In this document: positions 13,075-20,326 of the stretch, in pieces
Layout of the letters: every line of letters begins with the position of its first letter
How positions within the stretch are numbered: the first letter of the stretch is position 1
Source: an uncultured Bacteroidota bacterium
GTDB taxonomy: Bacteria > Bacteroidota > Bacteroidia > Flavobacteriales > Flavobacteriaceae
Direction of reading: 5' to 3'
NCBI GenBank assembly: GCA_902560065.1
Contig: CACEKG010000005.1
Span: 1 to 61,470, forward strand
Length of the DNA: 61,470 nucleotides
Notes under the pieces: generated by a model
What the model saw: the letters and a program-made list of their open reading frames with translations, nothing else
What the model was told of the DNA's origin: nothing
Databases searched by the model: none
Position numbers and translations under genes: made by a program

Positions 13075-13215
13075 ATTAAAAGAGTTTTAAAAAAAGATCT
13101 TCCAGAAAAAATTTGCCCTGTTTGTAACAGACCTTTTAAATGGAGAAAGAAATGGGAAAAAAATTGGAATCAAGTCACTTATTGTAGTTATAAATGCAGA
13201 AAGAAAAAGGGTTAA
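13075..13215 (+). CDS. DUF2256 mini zinc-ribbon protein, non-standard start
   Basis: A reading frame of about 46 residues that is easy to miss. It contains [18 protein letters not shown] followed by [11 protein letters not shown], the four-cysteine DUF2256 pattern, so it probably binds one zinc ion. DUF2256 genes are repeatedly found beside cryptochrome/photolyase genes. The frame is open only from 13060 (in-frame TGA at 13057-13059) and no ATG, GTG or TTG lies upstream of the conserved core. ATT at 13075 (used here) or 13063, or ATA, are the only start candidates. The end overlaps the cryptochrome start by 22 bp, suggesting coupled translation. Function is unknown. Confidence 0.75.
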
Positions 13216-14510
13216 TCTGGTTTACAAACAATCTAAGGGCAATTGACAATAAAGTTCTTTATGAAGCTTCAAAAAGAAGTGACTCTTTAATCGGTTATTA
13301 TAATTTTGACCCGTTATTATTTAAAAGAAATATATGGGGATTTAAAAAAACAGAAAAATATAGAACAAAGTTTTTAATTGAAAGTATTGATAATTTAAAA
13401 AAAAATCTTTCTCAACTAAACATAACTTTGGTAATTGATTTTTCTGAAGGTTTCAATAAATTATTTGAAGTAATTGGGAGAGAAAAAATAAGTTCTATAT
13501 ATTTTCAGAAAGAGTGGACTAGTGAAGAAAAAAAAACTCAGGATAAAATTTTCAATAAAATTTCAAAAAAAATAAAAAAACTTAGTTTTTATGATCAATT
13601 TTTATTTCAACCCAGTGATATAAATATTGAAATAGCTGATTTTCCTGAAATTTTTTCAATTTTCAGAAAAAAAGTTGAGAAAAAAATTGAAATTAACAAT
13701 TGCTTTCCTGTGCCTAAAAAATATCCTAAGTCAAATTTATTAAATATTGAAAATGAAACGCCAAATCTTGAAAAATTAGGATTTAAAAGTTTTAAGATTG
13801 ATGCTAATAGTGCTTTTCCTTTTATTGGAGGAACTGATAACTGTTTAGAAAGAATTAATTCTTATTTCTGGAAATCAAAAAAAATTGACTATTATAAACA
13901 AACTAGAAATGGAATGATAAAAACTGATTACAGTTCAAAGTTGTCATCCTGGTTATCAAATGGTTCTATTTCCGCTCGATATATTTATTGGCAAATAAAA
14001 GATTATGAAAAAAAAGAAACCAAAAATCAGTCAACTTATTGGTTGTTTTTTGAACTTATGTGGAGAGATTTCTTTAAATATATATCCATTAAACACGGTA
14101 ATAAAATTTTTAATAAAAATGGCCTTTCAAAAACTCAAGTAAATTGGATAAATGATCAAAAAGAATTAAAAAATTGGATAAATGGAACCACAGATGAACC
14201 TTTTATAAACGCAAACATGATAGAATTGAAAAAAACTGGCTGGATGAGCAATAGAGGCAGACAGAATGTTGCATCATTTTTTTCTAAAAATTTAAAATTA
14301 GATTGGAGAATTGGAGCTTCTTATTTTGAATCAATTTTAATTGACTATGATGTTCATAGCAATTATGGAAATTGGCTTTATAATTCTGGAATTGGAAATG
14401 ATCCAATGCCTTTTAGAAAACTTAATGTAAAATTTCAATCAGAAAAATATGATCCTAAGAAAAAATTTGAAAACCTATGGTTAAATAGTCAATATGAACT
14501 CGAGTTGTAA
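13194..14510 (+). CDS. DASH-family cryptochrome/photolyase
   Basis: A 438-residue FAD protein. The N-terminal antenna domain begins [15 protein letters not shown] (family form WFRNDLRxxDN). The FAD-binding C-terminal half has [10 protein letters not shown] near residue 290, then [20 protein letters not shown] and [19 protein letters not shown] followed by [15 protein letters not shown], the DASH signature. DASH proteins repair cyclobutane dimers, mainly in single-stranded DNA, and some act as blue-light sensors. The start overlaps the DUF2256 frame by 22 bp and the end overlaps the next photolyase gene by 17 bp, so the cassette is translationally coupled. Length is at the short end of the family. 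Confidence 0.92.
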
Positions 14511-15978
14511 CATTATCTTCCCTCATCAGCTTTTTAAAGATTTTATTCTACCAAAGAATAATACAACATATTTAATTGAAGAGTATCTTTTTTTTAATCA
14601 ATATAAATTTCATAAACAAAAAATATTATTTCATCGAGGAACAATGAAATATTATGAAAAATATTTGAAAGATCTCAAAATTGATGTTGTCTACATCAAC
14701 TCAGTCGATAAAAATTCTGACATAAGAATATTAATATCAGAAATTATCAAAAATAAATTCCAAAAAATAGAATATATAGATACTGTAGATTATTTACTAG
14801 AAAAAAGAATAAACTTTATTTCCGAAAAAAATAATATAGACTTAAATAAATACGAATCTTTATTGTTTATGAACTCTAATATTAATTTAGATTCTTTTTT
14901 TAAAAAAACTAAAAAAAAATTTTTTCAAACAACCTTCTATATTCAGCAGAGAAAAAATCATGATATATTAATTGATAACAACCAGAATCCGGAAGGGGGA
15001 CAATGGTCTTATGATGCATTAAATAGGGAAAAATATCCTAAAGAAAAAGAACCTCCTAAAGTAAGTTTAAATACTAAAAACTCTTTACATACAGATGCTG
15101 AAAAATATGTAAACCAGAGTTTTAAAGCTAATTATGGAAATCTTAACTCTGAGTTCTTTTATCCTAACACACATTCAAGTGCTGAAAAATGGTTTGATGA
15201 TTTTTTAAAAAACAGATTAGACAACTTTGGAAAATATGAAGATGCAATTGTTGAAAATGAGCTCATATTAAATCATAGTTTACTGAGTCCACTTATGAAT
15301 GTGGGTTTAATATCTCCCAATCATGTAATTAATAAAGCTATTAGTTACGCTAAAAAAAACAATATACCCTTAAATTCAATTGAGGGGTTTGTAAGACAAA
15401 TAATTGGATGGAGAGAATTTATTAGGGGAATATATGTTTCAAAAGGATCTGAGGAAAGGACTAAAAACTTTTGGGGTTTTTCTAAGAAAATTCCAAATAG
15501 TTTCTATTCTGGTGAAACAGGAATTACGCCAATTGACTCTGTCATCAAAAAAATTAATGATTACGCATATTGCCATCATATAGAAAGACTCATGGTTTTA
15601 GGCAATTTTATGTTATTATGCGAATTTGATCCTGATGATGTTTATAAATGGTTCATGGAAATGTTTATAGATTCATATGATTGGGTAATGGTACCCAACG
15701 TTTATGGAATGAGCCAATTTAGTGATGGTGGTTTAATGTCAACCAAGCCCTATATATCAAGTAGTAATTACCTATTTAAAATGAGTAATTATAATAAAAA
15801 AGATAAGTGGGTAAAAATATGGGATAGTTTGTTTTGGAGATTTATGGATGTACATAGAACCTTTTTTATAAAAAATCCAAGAATGAGAATGTTGGTTAAT
15901 ACATATGATAAAATGCAAAATGAGAAAAAAACTGAAATGAGAATAATTGCTGAAAAGTATTTAAAAAGTTTAGAATAA
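14494..15978 (+). CDS. CryPro/PhrB-type (6-4) photolyase-related protein lacking the Fe-S ligand loop
   Basis: A 494-residue protein of the deoxyribodipyrimidine photolyase-related family (FeS-BCP, CryPro). Conserved: NIIFPHQLF at the N-terminus (antenna domain), NPEGGQWSYDALNREK near 165-180, IIGWREFIRG near 303, CHHIERLMVLGNF at 360-372, and PNVYGMSQFSDGG followed by STKPY near 401-420 (FAD site). In typical members the segment after KMSDY carries a C-x2-C and a further Cys for a [4Fe-4S] cluster. Here residues 429-445 read KMSNYNKKDKWVKIWDS with no Cys, and the whole protein has only Cys5, Cys360 and Cys376. The cluster cannot form as in the family. Family repair substrate: (6-4) photoproducts. 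Confidence 0.9.
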   Translation: MNSSCNIIFPHQLFKDFILPKNNTTYLIEEYLFFNQYKFHKQKILFHRGTMKYYEKYLKDLKIDVVYINSVDKNSDIRILISEIIKNKFQKIEYIDTVDYLLEKRINFISEKNNIDLNKYESLLFMNSNINLDSFFKKTKKKFFQTTFYIQQRKNHDILIDNNQNPEGGQWSYDALNREKYPKEKEPPKVSLNTKNSLHTDAEKYVNQSFKANYGNLNSEFFYPNTHSSAEKWFDDFLKNRLDNFGKYEDAIVENELILNHSLLSPLMNVGLISPNHVINKAISYAKKNNIPLNSIEGFVRQIIGWREFIRGIYVSKGSEERTKNFWGFSKKIPNSFYSGETGITPIDSVIKKINDYAYCHHIERLMVLGNFMLLCEFDPDDVYKWFMEMFIDSYDWVMVPNVYGMSQFSDGGLMSTKPYISSSNYLFKMSNYNKKDKWVKIWDSLFWRFMDVHRTFFIKNPRMRMLVNTYDKMQNEKKTEMRIIAEKYLKSLE

Positions 15979-16277: not shown

Positions 16278-16285
16278 TAATTTTG
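16278..16285 (+). promoter_or_regulatory. Bacteroidota -7 element for the metal locus
   Basis: TAATTTTG fits TAnnTTTG exactly and lies 18 nt before the ATG at 16303. No TTG -33 element at the usual 17-23 nt spacing is evident. It would start the transcript of the His/Cys-rich locus separately from the photolyase cassette. Confidence 0.5.
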
Positions 16286-16302: not shown

Positions 16303-16620
16303 ATGAAGAAACTTAATAAATTCAAGTATTATATTGCTGCTTTTTTGATTATTGTTTTCTTTTCACCAACATTAATCCACACTTCATTTTTTTTCAAAAA
16401 TCATACTCACAAAATTTGTGAAATTTCAGATACTCACATGCATGAAAAAATTGATTCATGTAATTTATGTGAGTTCACTTTTACAAAAAAATATTATTTA
16501 AATAACAAAAATTTACTTGATAAGGTCATATATGTTATTAAGTCTTATCACTTTAGTTTTAAATTACTTTCATCATATTTTATTAATTTTTTTGATTCGC
16601 GAGCCCCTCCTGTTTTCTAA
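16303..16620 (+). CDS. Small exported Cys/His-rich protein, copy A
   Basis: A 105-residue protein with an N-terminal hydrophobic segment (residues 10-28; signal peptide or anchor). It is followed by a candidate metal-binding patch: NHTHKICEISDTHMHEK then CNLCEF, that is H-x-H-x2-C, H-x-H and C-x2-C within about 30 residues. The C-terminus is NFFDSRAPPVF. The protein at 19775-20089 has the same plan (KIC, spaced His, C-x2-C, and FNSRDPP at the end), so the two are paralogues flanking the lipoprotein and TonB receptor. No named family is recognised. Location in the envelope and a role with zinc or copper are inferred from composition and neighbours. Confidence 0.7.
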   Translation: MKKLNKFKYYIAAFLIIVFFSPTLIHTSFFFKNHTHKICEISDTHMHEKIDSCNLCEFTFTKKYYLNNKNLLDKVIYVIKSYHFSFKLLSSYFINFFDSRAPPVF

Positions 16621-16672
16621 ACACACTCTAATCTGAAATAATCAATTTAACAATTAATAAAAATCAAAAATC

Positions 16673-17218
16673 ATGAAAAAAAATATATTATACGCTTTTA
16701 TAACTCTCTGTCTGGTAATTACATCATGTTCAAAAGATGAGCCTGATCATGTCCACGAACATGAATTAATAACTACCATGACAATTACATTAACTCCCTC
16801 AGATGCATCAGGTTCTGTAACTCTTCAGACTCAAGATCTAGACGGTGATGGGCCCAATGCTCCTGATGTAACAGTTTCTGGAAATTTAAAATCAGGGGTT
16901 TTATACAATGGTGCAATTGTTTTGCTTAATGAAACTGAATCTCCTGCTGAAAACGTAACTATGGAAATTGAAGAAGAAGATAAAGAACATCAATTTTTCT
17001 TTACTGTAGGAAGCGGTTTGGATATTACAACAGAATATTTAAATTTCGACTCTGACGGCAATCCTCTTGGCACTAAGTTTTCTCTTATTGCAAGATCTGC
17101 TGGCAATGGTCTTATGACCGTTACTTTACGTCATGAACCTAAGAAACCAAATAGTGGTCTGGAAGATGCTGGAGGTGGAACTGATCTAGAGGCCTCTTTC
17201 AATGTTACTGTAGAGTAA
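16673..17218 (+). CDS. His-tagged envelope lipoprotein of the metal locus
   Basis: A 181-residue lipoprotein: signal peptide with lipobox VITSC at residues 16-20, then a short acidic-His tail DEPDHVHEHE that could bind a transition metal. The rest is a beta-rich domain (repeated TMTITLTP, VTLQTQDLDGDGPNAP, GVLYNGAIVLLNETESP, EHQFFFTVG, LMTVTLRHEPKKP) resembling flavobacterial proteins loosely annotated as type 1 periplasmic binding fold. Such genes regularly precede a TonB-dependent receptor, as here (66-bp gap with a hairpin). Probable job: catching or handing over metal at the outer membrane. The specific metal is not readable. Confidence 0.75.
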   Translation: MKKNILYAFITLCLVITSCSKDEPDHVHEHELITTMTITLTPSDASGSVTLQTQDLDGDGPNAPDVTVSGNLKSGVLYNGAIVLLNETESPAENVTMEIEEEDKEHQFFFTVGSGLDITTEYLNFDSDGNPLGTKFSLIARSAGNGLMTVTLRHEPKKPNSGLEDAGGGTDLEASFNVTVE

Positions 17219-17245
17219 AGTAGAATTAATTTTTTAAACTTAAAT

Positions 17246-17271
17246 TAGAGATGGATTTAAACCCATCTCTA
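17246..17271 (+). terminator. Hairpin between lipoprotein and TonB receptor genes
   Basis: TAGAGATGG (17246-17254) pairs perfectly with CCATCTCTA (17263-17271) around an 8-nt loop, followed by a U-rich GTTTTCT. It ends 13 nt before the receptor ATG. It may be an intrinsic terminator allowing partial read-through, or a stabilising hairpin for the lipoprotein mRNA. Confidence 0.6.
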
Positions 17272-17284
17272 GTTTTCTGTATAG

Positions 17285-19684
17285 ATGATTAAAAAAATCA
17301 TTGTATTATTATTCCTGTTAAGTAATATTACATATTCTCAAAATTGTAATTATACTTTTTCGGGAAAAGTTATTGATCTTCACGATGGATCCCCACTTAT
17401 AGGTGCAATAATAATATCTAGTAATTCCGATGTTCTAGTGCAAACAGACATAAATGGGAATTTTAATATTACAAATCTTTGTGAAAAAACATACGTGTTT
17501 AATGTTTCTCATCCATCGTGTGAATCAAGAACTTATGATATAAAAATTTCAAAAAACATAAGTAAAAATTTAATATTGGAACATCATATTGAAGAATTAA
17601 ACGAAGTTTCTGTATTTGGAAAATCTAATGATGAAAAATCTAAAACTTTAATAGAGAATAAAATTTCAGTTGAAACTATAGATAATTATAATAGTGGCTC
17701 ATTAGGAGATATATTAAAAAATATATCTGGAATCTCTTCTTTTAACACAGGAAATACTATCATTAAGCCAATAATAAACGGATTACATAGCAGTAGAGTT
17801 GTTATTATTAATAAGGGTGTAAAAATGGAAGATCAAGAATGGGGAACTGAGCATGCTCCTAATATAGACATTAACTCAATTGAAAGTCTTAAACTTGTTA
17901 AAGGTGCAGGTTTACTAGAATATAGTGGTGATGCCATCGGTGGAATAATTATCGCTGAAGCATCAAAAGTTGAGAAAAAAGACAGTTTATATGGCAAAAC
18001 AATACTTTCAAATTCTACAAATGGTAGAGGTTCAACTATATCTTCTAGATTAACCAAAACTTATTCAAATGGATGGTATGGATCAATTCAAACTACATAT
18101 AAACGTTATGGTGATTTTGAGTCTGCTGATTATGTCTTAAGCAACACTGGAACACAAGAGAAAAATTTTTCATTTCGTTCTGGTATGGATAAATACACTC
18201 ATGGCTTTGAATTATATATTTCAAATTTTGATAATGAAACAGGAATTTTAAAAGCATCTCATTTACATTCAGCTCAGGAACAACTTAGAGGCATTAACAG
18301 TTCAAAGCCCTTAATAATTGATAATTTCACTTATGATATAAATGCTCCTAAGCAAACTTACACTCATACTTTAGCAAGATTTAAAGGATATAAATTTTAT
18401 AATAATTTTGGAAAATTAAATTTTCAATACGATTTTCAAAGAAATAGACGTTTTGAATATGATATCAGAAGAAGTGCATATAAAAATCTTCCATCTATTG
18501 ATCTTAATCTGAAAACTCACTCTGTAAAATTTGATTTATTATCGAGTTTAAGTTCTAATTTGAACTTGAAAATTGGAATATTAGGTCGATATCAAAATAA
18601 CTATCCTAATCCTAGAACTGGTGTAAAAAGAATTATTCCTGATTATGATAAGTTTGATCTTGGATTTTATAGTATTCTAGATTATTTATTAAACAATAAT
18701 CTTACAATAGAATCAGGAGTTCGCTTTGATTATACACATATGGATGTTTTTAAATTTTATAATGTTTCTTTATGGAATTCGAGAAACTATGATAAAAAAT
18801 ATAGCAACCTTGTTTTAGAAGAATACAATAATCAAATTTTAATAAACTCAAAACTTAACTTCAGTAATCTGTCGGCTACAATTGGAACCAGATATAATTT
18901 GAAAAATAACAGCAAAATCTTATTTAATTACTCTCTGGCATCTAGAGTTCCAAACCCCTCAGAATTGTTTAGTGAAGGTCTCCATCATTCCGCAGCAAGA
19001 ATTGAACTTGGAGATTTAAGTTTTAAGTCTGAATTAGGGCATAAATTAACATTCACTTATTCTTATGACGGTAAAAAAACAAGTTTATCAATAAATCCTT
19101 ATGCAAATTTAATTGACAACTTTATATTAATTGAACCAACAACAATCCAGCAAACGATAAGAGGAAGTTTTCAAGTTTGGGAATATAGACAAACTAACGC
19201 GCAACTATTAGGATTAGACTTTGATTTAAAATATAAGGTTAATCAAAAATTTAATTTAGAAAATCAATTTTCATTAGTCAAAGGATATGATGTTACTTTA
19301 GATGAGGCTTTAATAAATATGCCGCCTGTTAGTATAAAGAATCAAATAATTTATAATAATTCAAAATCAAATAATCTAAAATTATCTTTTCAAAGTGAAT
19401 ATGTTTTTAAGCAAAATGAATTTCCAAATAATGATTTTACAGTATTTATTCCCCAAACTGAAAGATTTGAATTGGTTGAATTAAGTACTCCCCCAAAAGC
19501 CTATCAATTGTTAAATTTTAATTCAAGTATAGATTTAAATATTTTTAAAAAAACAAAAATGAATCTAACATTTAGAATAAATAATCTTCTTAATACCTCA
19601 TATCGAAATTATTTAAATCGTTTGAGATATTATAGTCATGAATTAGGTAGGAATTTTACACTAAATATTAAATTTAATTACTAG
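17285..19684 (+). CDS. TonB-dependent outer-membrane receptor, ZnuD-like (metal uptake)
   Basis: A 799-residue receptor. Signal peptide at residues 1-19 (ends TYSQ), carboxypeptidase-regulatory-like domain at about 22-105 (FSGKVIDLHDGSPLIGAII), plug at about 115-225 (NISGISSF, INGLHSSRVVIINKGV, EWGTEHAPNIDI, VKGAGLLEYSGDAIGGII), then a beta-barrel to the terminal KFNY. The HAPNID and SEGLHHSAARIELGD segments resemble receptors of the ZnuD group. With the His-rich lipoproteins and Cys/His mini-proteins on both sides this suggests zinc (or another divalent metal) import rather than siderophore or glycan uptake. Ligand not proven. Possibly controlled by the hairpin just upstream. Confidence 0.85.
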   Translation: MIKKIIVLLFLLSNITYSQNCNYTFSGKVIDLHDGSPLIGAIIISSNSDVLVQTDINGNFNITNLCEKTYVFNVSHPSCESRTYDIKISKNISKNLILEHHIEELNEVSVFGKSNDEKSKTLIENKISVETIDNYNSGSLGDILKNISGISSFNTGNTIIKPIINGLHSSRVVIINKGVKMEDQEWGTEHAPNIDINSIESLKLVKGAGLLEYSGDAIGGIIIAEASKVEKKDSLYGKTILSNSTNGRGSTISSRLTKTYSNGWYGSIQTTYKRYGDFESADYVLSNTGTQEKNFSFRSGMDKYTHGFELYISNFDNETGILKASHLHSAQEQLRGINSSKPLIIDNFTYDINAPKQTYTHTLARFKGYKFYNNFGKLNFQYDFQRNRRFEYDIRRSAYKNLPSIDLNLKTHSVKFDLLSSLSSNLNLKIGILGRYQNNYPNPRTGVKRIIPDYDKFDLGFYSILDYLLNNNLTIESGVRFDYTHMDVFKFYNVSLWNSRNYDKKYSNLVLEEYNNQILINSKLNFSNLSATIGTRYNLKNNSKILFNYSLASRVPNPSELFSEGLHHSAARIELGDLSFKSELGHKLTFTYSYDGKKTSLSINPYANLIDNFILIEPTTIQQTIRGSFQVWEYRQTNAQLLGLDFDLKYKVNQKFNLENQFSLVKGYDVTLDEALINMPPVSIKNQIIYNNSKSNNLKLSFQSEYVFKQNEFPNNDFTVFIPQTERFELVELSTPPKAYQLLNFNSSIDLNIFKKTKMNLTFRINNLLNTSYRNYLNRLRYYSHELGRNFTLNIKFNY

Positions 19685-19774
19685 TAAAATATTGTTTATT
19701 TTTTATTCTCTTTGAAATTGACTAAATTTAAGTCGAAAAGGTTACTTATAATAATCTAAAGTTTAATTTTTAAC

Positions 19775-20089
19775 ATGAAAAAAAGATTAAGTTTTTTTCT
19801 TATTGCTGTTTTACTTTCTCCAAATATAATTTCCCTAGAACACCTTTTTTCTGAAAATAAAAAAATATGTACCGAACAAAAAGTTCATTTTGATCAACAT
19901 GAAGTTGATTGTTCTGTATGCTATTTATATTCTAATACACACCCAAGTATTTTCATAGATAATAAAACTAATCTTTTTAAACCCCCTATAAAACCGAATA
20001 TTAGCTTTCAAAATAATTATAACTCAAATTTTATAAATATTTTTAATTCACGTGACCCGCCAAAAAACTTAATACTTTTGCACGTTTAA
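19775..20089 (+). CDS. Small exported Cys/His-rich protein, copy B
   Basis: A 104-residue protein with a signal peptide-like start (MKKRLSFFLIAVLLSPNIIS). The candidate metal patch is KKICTEQKVHFDQHEVDCSV followed by Cys: Cys, then spaced His, then C-x2-C. It ends with NFINIFNSRDPPKNL in the last 20 or so residues. The order of elements and the SRxPP ending match the protein at 16303-20 of the same locus, so both belong to one small family without a name I recognise. It sits 90 bp after the TonB receptor and 37 bp before the 45-residue His-rich lipoprotein. A role as periplasmic or outer-membrane metal chaperone is inferred. Confidence 0.7.
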   Translation: MKKRLSFFLIAVLLSPNIISLEHLFSENKKICTEQKVHFDQHEVDCSVCYLYSNTHPSIFIDNKTNLFKPPIKPNISFQNNYNSNFINIFNSRDPPKNLILLHV

Positions 20090-20126
20090 AAATTACTTAT
20101 TTATTAACATTAAAATTAAAAATATT

Positions 20127-20264
20127 ATGAAAAAATTTATATCACTAGCATTTGCTTCAGCCTTATTAATGGCTTCATTTGCTGCTTGCGAAGACGATCA
20201 TGATGATCATGATGGTCACGATCATTCAAGCCTTGTAGTTAAGAATGATTCAAATATAGCTTAG
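20127..20264 (+). CDS. 45-residue His/Asp-rich mini-lipoprotein
   Basis: A very short frame from ATG 20127 to TAG 20262-20264. The product has a complete lipoprotein signal (MKKFISLAFASALLMASFAA then Cys21), leaving a mature peptide of about 25 residues that begins CEDDHDDHDGHDHSS, with four His among acidic residues. This is an obvious divalent-metal binding tail tethered to a membrane. It is followed by a strong terminator at 20291-20326, so it closes the metal locus. No family is recognised. The signal peptide, lipobox and location make it very unlikely to be a chance frame. Confidence 0.75.
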   Translation: MKKFISLAFASALLMASFAACEDDHDDHDGHDHSSLVVKNDSNIA

Positions 20265-20290
20265 AGTTTTAATTTCTGGGTTTTATTTTA

Positions 20291-20326
20291 AAACATCTGC
20301 TTTTTTTAAGGCAGATGTTTTTTTTA
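20291..20326 (+). terminator. Rho-independent terminator closing the metal locus
   Basis: ACATCTGC (20293-20300) pairs with GCAGATGT (20311-20318); the flanking A-run and the following T-run (20319-20325) extend it. It is a textbook intrinsic terminator 27 nt after the mini-lipoprotein stop. Confidence 0.9.

Follow-up and report, generated by a model that had tools for sequence, protein, structure and literature searches.

The closest described counterpart of the locus analysed here is ZnuD, the TonB-dependent zinc receptor of Neisseria meningitidis (PMC4557270). Zur-regulated TonB receptors are known, for example from Caulobacter (PMC4176598; reviewed in PMC6103462), and GTP cyclohydrolases and COG0523 proteins turn up repeatedly in Zur regulons; the Bacteroidota are not mentioned in this review (PMC6103462). 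In Leptospira, a mini-protein and a TonB receptor, LIC10965 and LIC10964, are both upregulated in host-adapted cells (PMC3953431). The literature searched contained no account of Zur-controlled TonB receptors in Bacteroidota. Pairs of a TonB receptor and a surface lipoprotein are a feature of this phylum, with BtuB-BtuG and HmuR-HmuY as types. To our knowledge, ZnuD has not been described with lipoprotein and mini-protein neighbours.

The window, a stretch of 61,470 nucleotides from an uncultured member of the Flavobacteriaceae, contains five open reading frames within 16303-20264, here named A to E in gene order, all on the forward strand and separated by gaps of 52, 66, 90, and 37 bp (Table 1). 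In agreement with the original prediction of five exported products, each begins with a hydrophobic export signal, and a lipobox cysteine is present in B and E. For four of the products, A, B, D, and E, searches of Pfam and NCBIfam gave nothing above threshold, so that the locus does contain parts without a named family, as had been proposed. The predicted promoter-like element before A is a fair assignment: its motif has a density of 0.85 per kb on the forward strand of the window, and the copy upstream of A is also kept in the sister species (L025). The predicted strong terminator was likewise found, as a hairpin followed by a T tail. The hairpin between B and C is a possible transcript attenuator or processing site. 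Housekeeping genes flank the locus, with a DUF2805 protein and photolyase-like genes upstream and YjbQ downstream; at 13194-15978, two genes of photolyase/cryptochrome type, encoding 438 and 494 aa, lie next to each other and were recognized by eye from the sequence.

Table 1. Features of the A-E locus, with positions in the window.
Feature	Position	Strand	Remarks
Promoter-like -7 element TAnnTTTG (TAATTTTG)	16278..16285	+	about 20 bp 5' of A; Bacteroidota-type
A, mini-protein, 105 aa	16303..16620	+	unnamed family
B, lipoprotein, 181 aa	16673..17218	+	Ig-like beta-sandwich; unnamed family
Lipid-acceptor Cys and C-S-K-D-E surface-export signal of B	16727..16741	+	fits C-X-K-(D/E)2-X
Hairpin, 11 pairs	17246..17271	both	between B and C
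C, TonB-dependent receptor, 799 aa	17285..19684	+	CarboxypepD_reg_2, plug, and barrel; ZnuD-like
N-terminal periplasmic extension of C, residues 21-110	17345..17614	+	C21, C66, H76, C79, H100, H101 conserved
Plug E189-H190 of C	17849..17854	+	aligned with ZnuD zinc ligands D99/H100
E391 of C	18455..18457	+	invariant acid near ZnuD E340; alignment gives no firm equivalence
H567 of C	18983..18985	+	aligned with ZnuD zinc ligand H499
D, second mini-protein, 104 aa	19775..20089	+	A paralogue
E, lipoprotein, 45 aa, with DDHDDHDGHDH	20127..20264	+	resembles N-terminus of His-rich B protein
Terminator-like hairpin, 14 pairs, and T tail	20290..20321	+	3' of E

The original prediction regarded the five genes as one system with a conserved order. 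This did not hold, since D and E are absent from the sister species and the conserved unit consists of three genes only, A, B, and C. In a search of 80 relatives, B was present in 24, in every fetched case beside a C homologue and mostly beside an A homologue as well. A receptor scan of GTDB genomes yielded 80 loci, in 79 of which B adjoins C. Most of these loci have a mini-protein by HMM, and nearly all do when loci without an HMM match are judged by eye (an upstream ORF of about 100 aa with a hydrophobic start, H..., C..C, and a C-terminal R/K-x-P-P). The commonest gene order is A-C-B, and the order A-B-C of the window is also found in its genus and in locus L070. The unit occurs in several unrelated chromosomal contexts, which indicates that A, B, and C belong together. 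Its carriers include several Winogradskyella and Polaribacter. Its co-occurrence with ZnuA is weak (12 of 24 genomes with the unit vs. 16 of 56 without it). At the commonest Flavobacteriaceae site the mini-protein gene abuts or overlaps the preceding gene, and this arrangement suggests constitutive expression there. Four Flavobacteriaceae loci without the trio (L239-L242) feature, at this same site (serC-serA-...-folE), a mini-protein next to a receptor from a different clade, with no B; it appears that a mini-protein-receptor pair is retained there even as the type of receptor varies.

Receptor C is nearest to ZnuD among solved structures both by sequence and by predicted fold, as had been proposed. 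In profile comparisons ZnuD comes first (E 5e-32), followed by OprC (3e-24) and PhuR (2e-15), and the AF2 model of C (pLDDT 86.6) retrieves the ZnuD entries 4rdr, 4rdt_A, and 4rdt_B at ranks 1-3. In a HMMER alignment (chain 4rdr offset 14), E189, H190, and H567 align with three members of the ZnuD ligand set D99/H100/E340/H499; D99 is deduced from the constant 4rdr offset, and the simulation text of the ZnuD paper prints D90. Position 189 is E or D in 94 of 94 receptors, H190 and E391 are likewise present in all 94, and H567 is found in 58 of 58 members of the B-associated group. ZnuD and C have in common the plug acid-His pair, the barrel His, and an E-x-G-N/D motif. C differs from ZnuD in falling far short of the cut-off of the NCBIfam ZnuD model NF038289 (76.8 vs. 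950 bits), in lacking the His-rich loops of ZnuD (no more than 3 His in any 20 residues), and in having an additional N-terminal CarboxypepD_reg domain. The Cys and His residues of this extension (Table 1) are kept in the Flavobacteriaceae receptors and constitute a possible second, periplasmic metal site. Altogether, the first rank of ZnuD by profile and fold, the ligand mapping, and the conservation of the mapped residues argue for C as a ZnuD-like zinc receptor.

B is modelled with high confidence as an Ig-like sandwich (AF2 pLDDT 91.7), for which a fold search gave no PDB match below E 0.001 and a PDB sequence search gave chance-level matches only. The DHVHEHE segment of B, originally taken for a metal-binding tail, proved to be a variable N-terminal linker after the lipobox, with no His there in 77 of 79 B proteins. 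The conserved residues of B that may be capable of binding metal are instead H106 and H154, both invariant in the family, together with many conserved acidic residues. The lipid-acceptor Cys of B opens a segment that fits the optimal surface-export signal of Capnocytophaga (PMC5080379), and at least two acidic residues occur at positions +2 to +6 in all 79 B homologues; B is therefore likely to be exposed on the cell surface. The tie between a receptor gene and a surface-lipoprotein gene is shared with BtuB-BtuG and HmuR-HmuY, from which B-C differs in the Ig-like B without a significant PDB match and in the ligand class.

A consists of an N-terminal hydrophobic anchor, a conserved H..C..H.H..C cluster, and a C-terminal R-A/G-P-P motif. 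C39, C53, R100, P102, and P103 are invariant in its family, while H45 and H47 are present in at least 90%. The proposed relation between the two mini-proteins was confirmed, A and D being distant paralogues (phmmer E ~1e-6). Neither reaches the cut-off of DUF2946 or of the LIC10965 family. Weak family-level matches are given by one mini-protein to DUF2946 (E 0.022) and by two to NF047702, namely A over the full length (E 0.026) and another member (0.006, the best), far under the family cut-off. Like A and C, LIC10965 and LIC10964 combine a small protein, of a 104-position family, with a TonB receptor, and the two genes are consecutively numbered; homology of A to the LIC10965 family is only a lead. 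L076:9659-9973, adjacent to a CzcA/CusA-type efflux gene, encodes a DUF6660 mini-protein that is also small, contains Cys and His, and has PP near its end; it may be remotely related in kind to the A mini-proteins.

In the sister species, which lacks D, E, and the terminator, the receptor stop codon lies about 15 bp before yjbQ, so these elements were either inserted in the window's lineage or lost in the other. They may represent a later insert, made of an extra mini-protein and a His-rich lipoprotein stub. The DDHDDHDGHDH segment of E is present as predicted and is the sole 11-residue stretch with at least 4 His among the coding-strand open frames of the locus. No convincing orthologue of E was found (best E = 0.001-0.003, always to short parts of longer proteins); it is 42% identical to the N-terminus of the B protein of genome G030 (E = 0.0017), and may be a relic or else a free-standing His-rich lipoprotein. 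Alternatively, D and E could form a functional second module in which a His-rich surface lipoprotein is joined by a separate mini-protein, extending the system in this lineage. This reading, compatible with the main explanation below, has a little less than an even chance: both frames are intact with GC3 similar to that of their neighbours, and extra mini-proteins recur beside the unit, in downstream position, in L049, L089, L093, L106, and L127, so that D is not unique in kind, whereas the absence of the pair from the sister species and the lack of an E orthologue speak against it. The best match of D outside the locus (6.9e-8) is a mini-protein that adjoins another receptor in L238. That receptor gene (L238:4614-7022, genome G005) is read in two overlapping frames, and its loops are very rich in His, Asp, and Glu.

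In the receptor tree, a phylum-wide sample (88 of 297 genomes at E 1e-60) falls into three groups: the B group (60 rows, support 100), receptors partnered by DUF4625 lipoproteins, and receptors that have neither. Lipoprotein type therefore tracks receptor clade. The N-terminal extension is found in only part of the B clade and is mostly missing in the DUF4625 clade. In the tree, most of the receptors nearest to those of the Flavobacteriales (support 99) have a Fur-type gene beside the pair. Counting genes up to 4 kb away, 10 of 80 loci are Fur-linked where about 0.3 would be expected (an excess of about 30-fold); the expectation derives from 62 Fur matches in 30 genomes of about 119 Mb summed, and as these genomes are related it is not a strict probability. 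Arrangements include a B-C-Fur operon (L175), divergent B and Fur genes (L166), and a convergent case (L177). In the window's genus there is a single Fur match per genome (assemblies 89%- and 66%-complete), and genome G001 has one strong Fur only.

The upstream regions of the Fur-linked receptor loci have TGCAACnnnGTTGCA in common, of which 29 exact sites occur in 20 genomes vs. none for the reversed control. These sites are located at the Fur-type gene itself, including one that adjoins a ZntA/CadA-type ATPase gene, as well as at MerC-FolE-CobW operons, DUF4625 lipoprotein genes, and B-C clusters, and before the gene of a ZigA-type COG0523 protein (6e-168, 559 of 600 bits); in L276 the order is box-B-Fur. 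On sequence grounds this gene set looks like a Zur-like regulon, and the homologous pairs resemble known Zur-regulated TonB receptors in that GTP cyclohydrolase and COG0523 proteins belong to the regulon. Outside the Flavobacteriaceae set, the box stands at a gene start in 15 of 66 B-containing clusters. The Zur or Fur box that had been suggested upstream of the locus was not found in the window, which has no site with fewer than 3 mismatches, nor in the Flavobacteriaceae set (0 of 79 copies); in other Bacteroidota, however, the same pair has a Zur-like box before it. Upstream of 81 homologues, palindromes did not exceed shuffles and, a Fur-like 7-1-7 pattern aside, known Zur and Fur boxes were not enriched; the 7-1-7 enrichment was rejected, since coding sequence shared by loci at one syntenic position accounts for most of it.

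Two further lipoprotein types carry the box. In L262, L267, L152, and L155 it accompanies DUF4625 (PF15418) lipoproteins, the partners of the sister receptor clade; box and receptor partnership give this domain of unknown function, which the literature searched did not mention, a possible role. In L261:4106-8170 (G238:C16) an exact box lies 70 bp before the gene of a 924-aa TonB receptor, which is followed by a DUF4876 lipoprotein gene, and this pair is a candidate second zinc receptor-lipoprotein system. Neither the box TGCAACnnnGTTGCA nor the lipoprotein partners were found described in the literature searched.

Taken together, the proposed role in metal acquisition is supported, and A-B-C is best explained, with better than even confidence, as an outer-membrane zinc-uptake unit composed of a ZnuD-like receptor together with its own surface lipoprotein and a mini-protein in the periplasm. 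Zinc would be captured at the surface by B or by C directly. Surface-exposed B would form a pair with C and probably either capture the ligand or cap the receptor, in the manner of BtuG on BtuB. C would bind Zn2+, possibly from a complex, at plug E189-H190 and barrel H567 and import it with TonB energy. A, anchored in the inner membrane and facing the periplasm, would probably receive, buffer, or hand on the metal, or sense loading. These roles of B and A are proposed from location, conservation, and analogy. Zinc is assigned as the substrate of the class from fold, ligands, and the regulon of the homologues, and for the window's organism we infer it from the class. Points against this reading are the lack of the box in the window and the other Flavobacteriaceae copies, the single Fur match per genome in the genus, the presence of ZnuA in only 12 of 24 genomes with the unit, the low ZnuD-model score of C and its lack of His-rich loops, the missing clear counterpart of ZnuD E340, the alignment of H190 and H567 with His of heme receptors, and the few loci next to efflux genes.

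Import of another transition metal, most likely copper, by Flavobacteriaceae copies that diverged from their Zur-boxed relatives is unlikely. The absence of a Zur box from these copies would fit, and OprC, whose metal site lies in the corresponding plug loop, comes second among the solved relatives of C by profile and by fold. However, the positions of the OprC copper ligands, which we take to be C143 and M147, are occupied in C by E185 and E189, leaving no soft Cys/Met ligands, and C scores 58.5 bits against the cut-off of 472 of the copper receptor model TIGR01778. A few loci adjoin copper or heavy-metal efflux genes (L054, L055, L076, L186), with L054 in a CusB/CopA island, L055 and L076 beside CusA/CzcA, and L177 beside a heavy-metal P-type ATPase gene, yet these neighbours are too few to carry the argument. 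Efflux genes of this kind are common in Bacteroidota. Furthermore, the homologous pairs share their box with FolE, ZigA, and MerC.

The presence of FolE and a ZigA-like COG0523 protein in this regulon also argues against C as a receptor for heme or an iron complex with an iron regulator as its Fur-type neighbour, a rather improbable reading. The heme model TIGR01786 does outscore the ZnuD model on C (94.6 bits, cut-off 324), H190 and H567 also align with His of heme receptors, and two of the Fur-type proteins score best to iron Fur models. Nevertheless, heme receptors rank behind ZnuD and OprC by profile and fold, and the NPNL heme motif is replaced in C by the ZnuD-type E-x-G-D/N..L..E. Finally, an ordinary receptor-lipoprotein pair for a small organic nutrient, with coincidental metal-like motifs, would account for the generic Ig-like fold of B and its lack of a conserved His-rich segment. 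Such a coincidence is very improbable given the full conservation of E/D189-H190 and E391, the Cys/His clusters of the mini-proteins, and the Zur-like regulon of the homologues. Placement of C with glycan or siderophore receptors, the outcome named at the outset as speaking against a metal system, was not obtained, as structure and profile comparisons put it with neither; the SusC model TIGR04056 is not among the matches of C, and B has no match to SusD.

Beyond the ZnuD-like zinc-uptake unit itself, the comparisons allow a broader and more tentative proposal, to which we give slightly less than even weight: a three-part zinc system found across the Bacteroidota, in which the R-x-P-P mini-protein would pass zinc on, with Zur-like control through TGCAACnnnGTTGCA in several lineages, while the Flavobacteriaceae would have been freed from it and express the unit with housekeeping genes. 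Of greater interest than the single locus is that a receptor-lipoprotein pair is spread across the phylum and, in several lineages, forms part of a Zur-like regulon. Outer-membrane zinc passage in Bacteroidota appears undescribed in the literature searched. With the present analysis, two unnamed protein families gain a testable role, the ligand residues of C are predicted, and a specific regulator box lets the zinc regulon of Bacteroidota be mapped.
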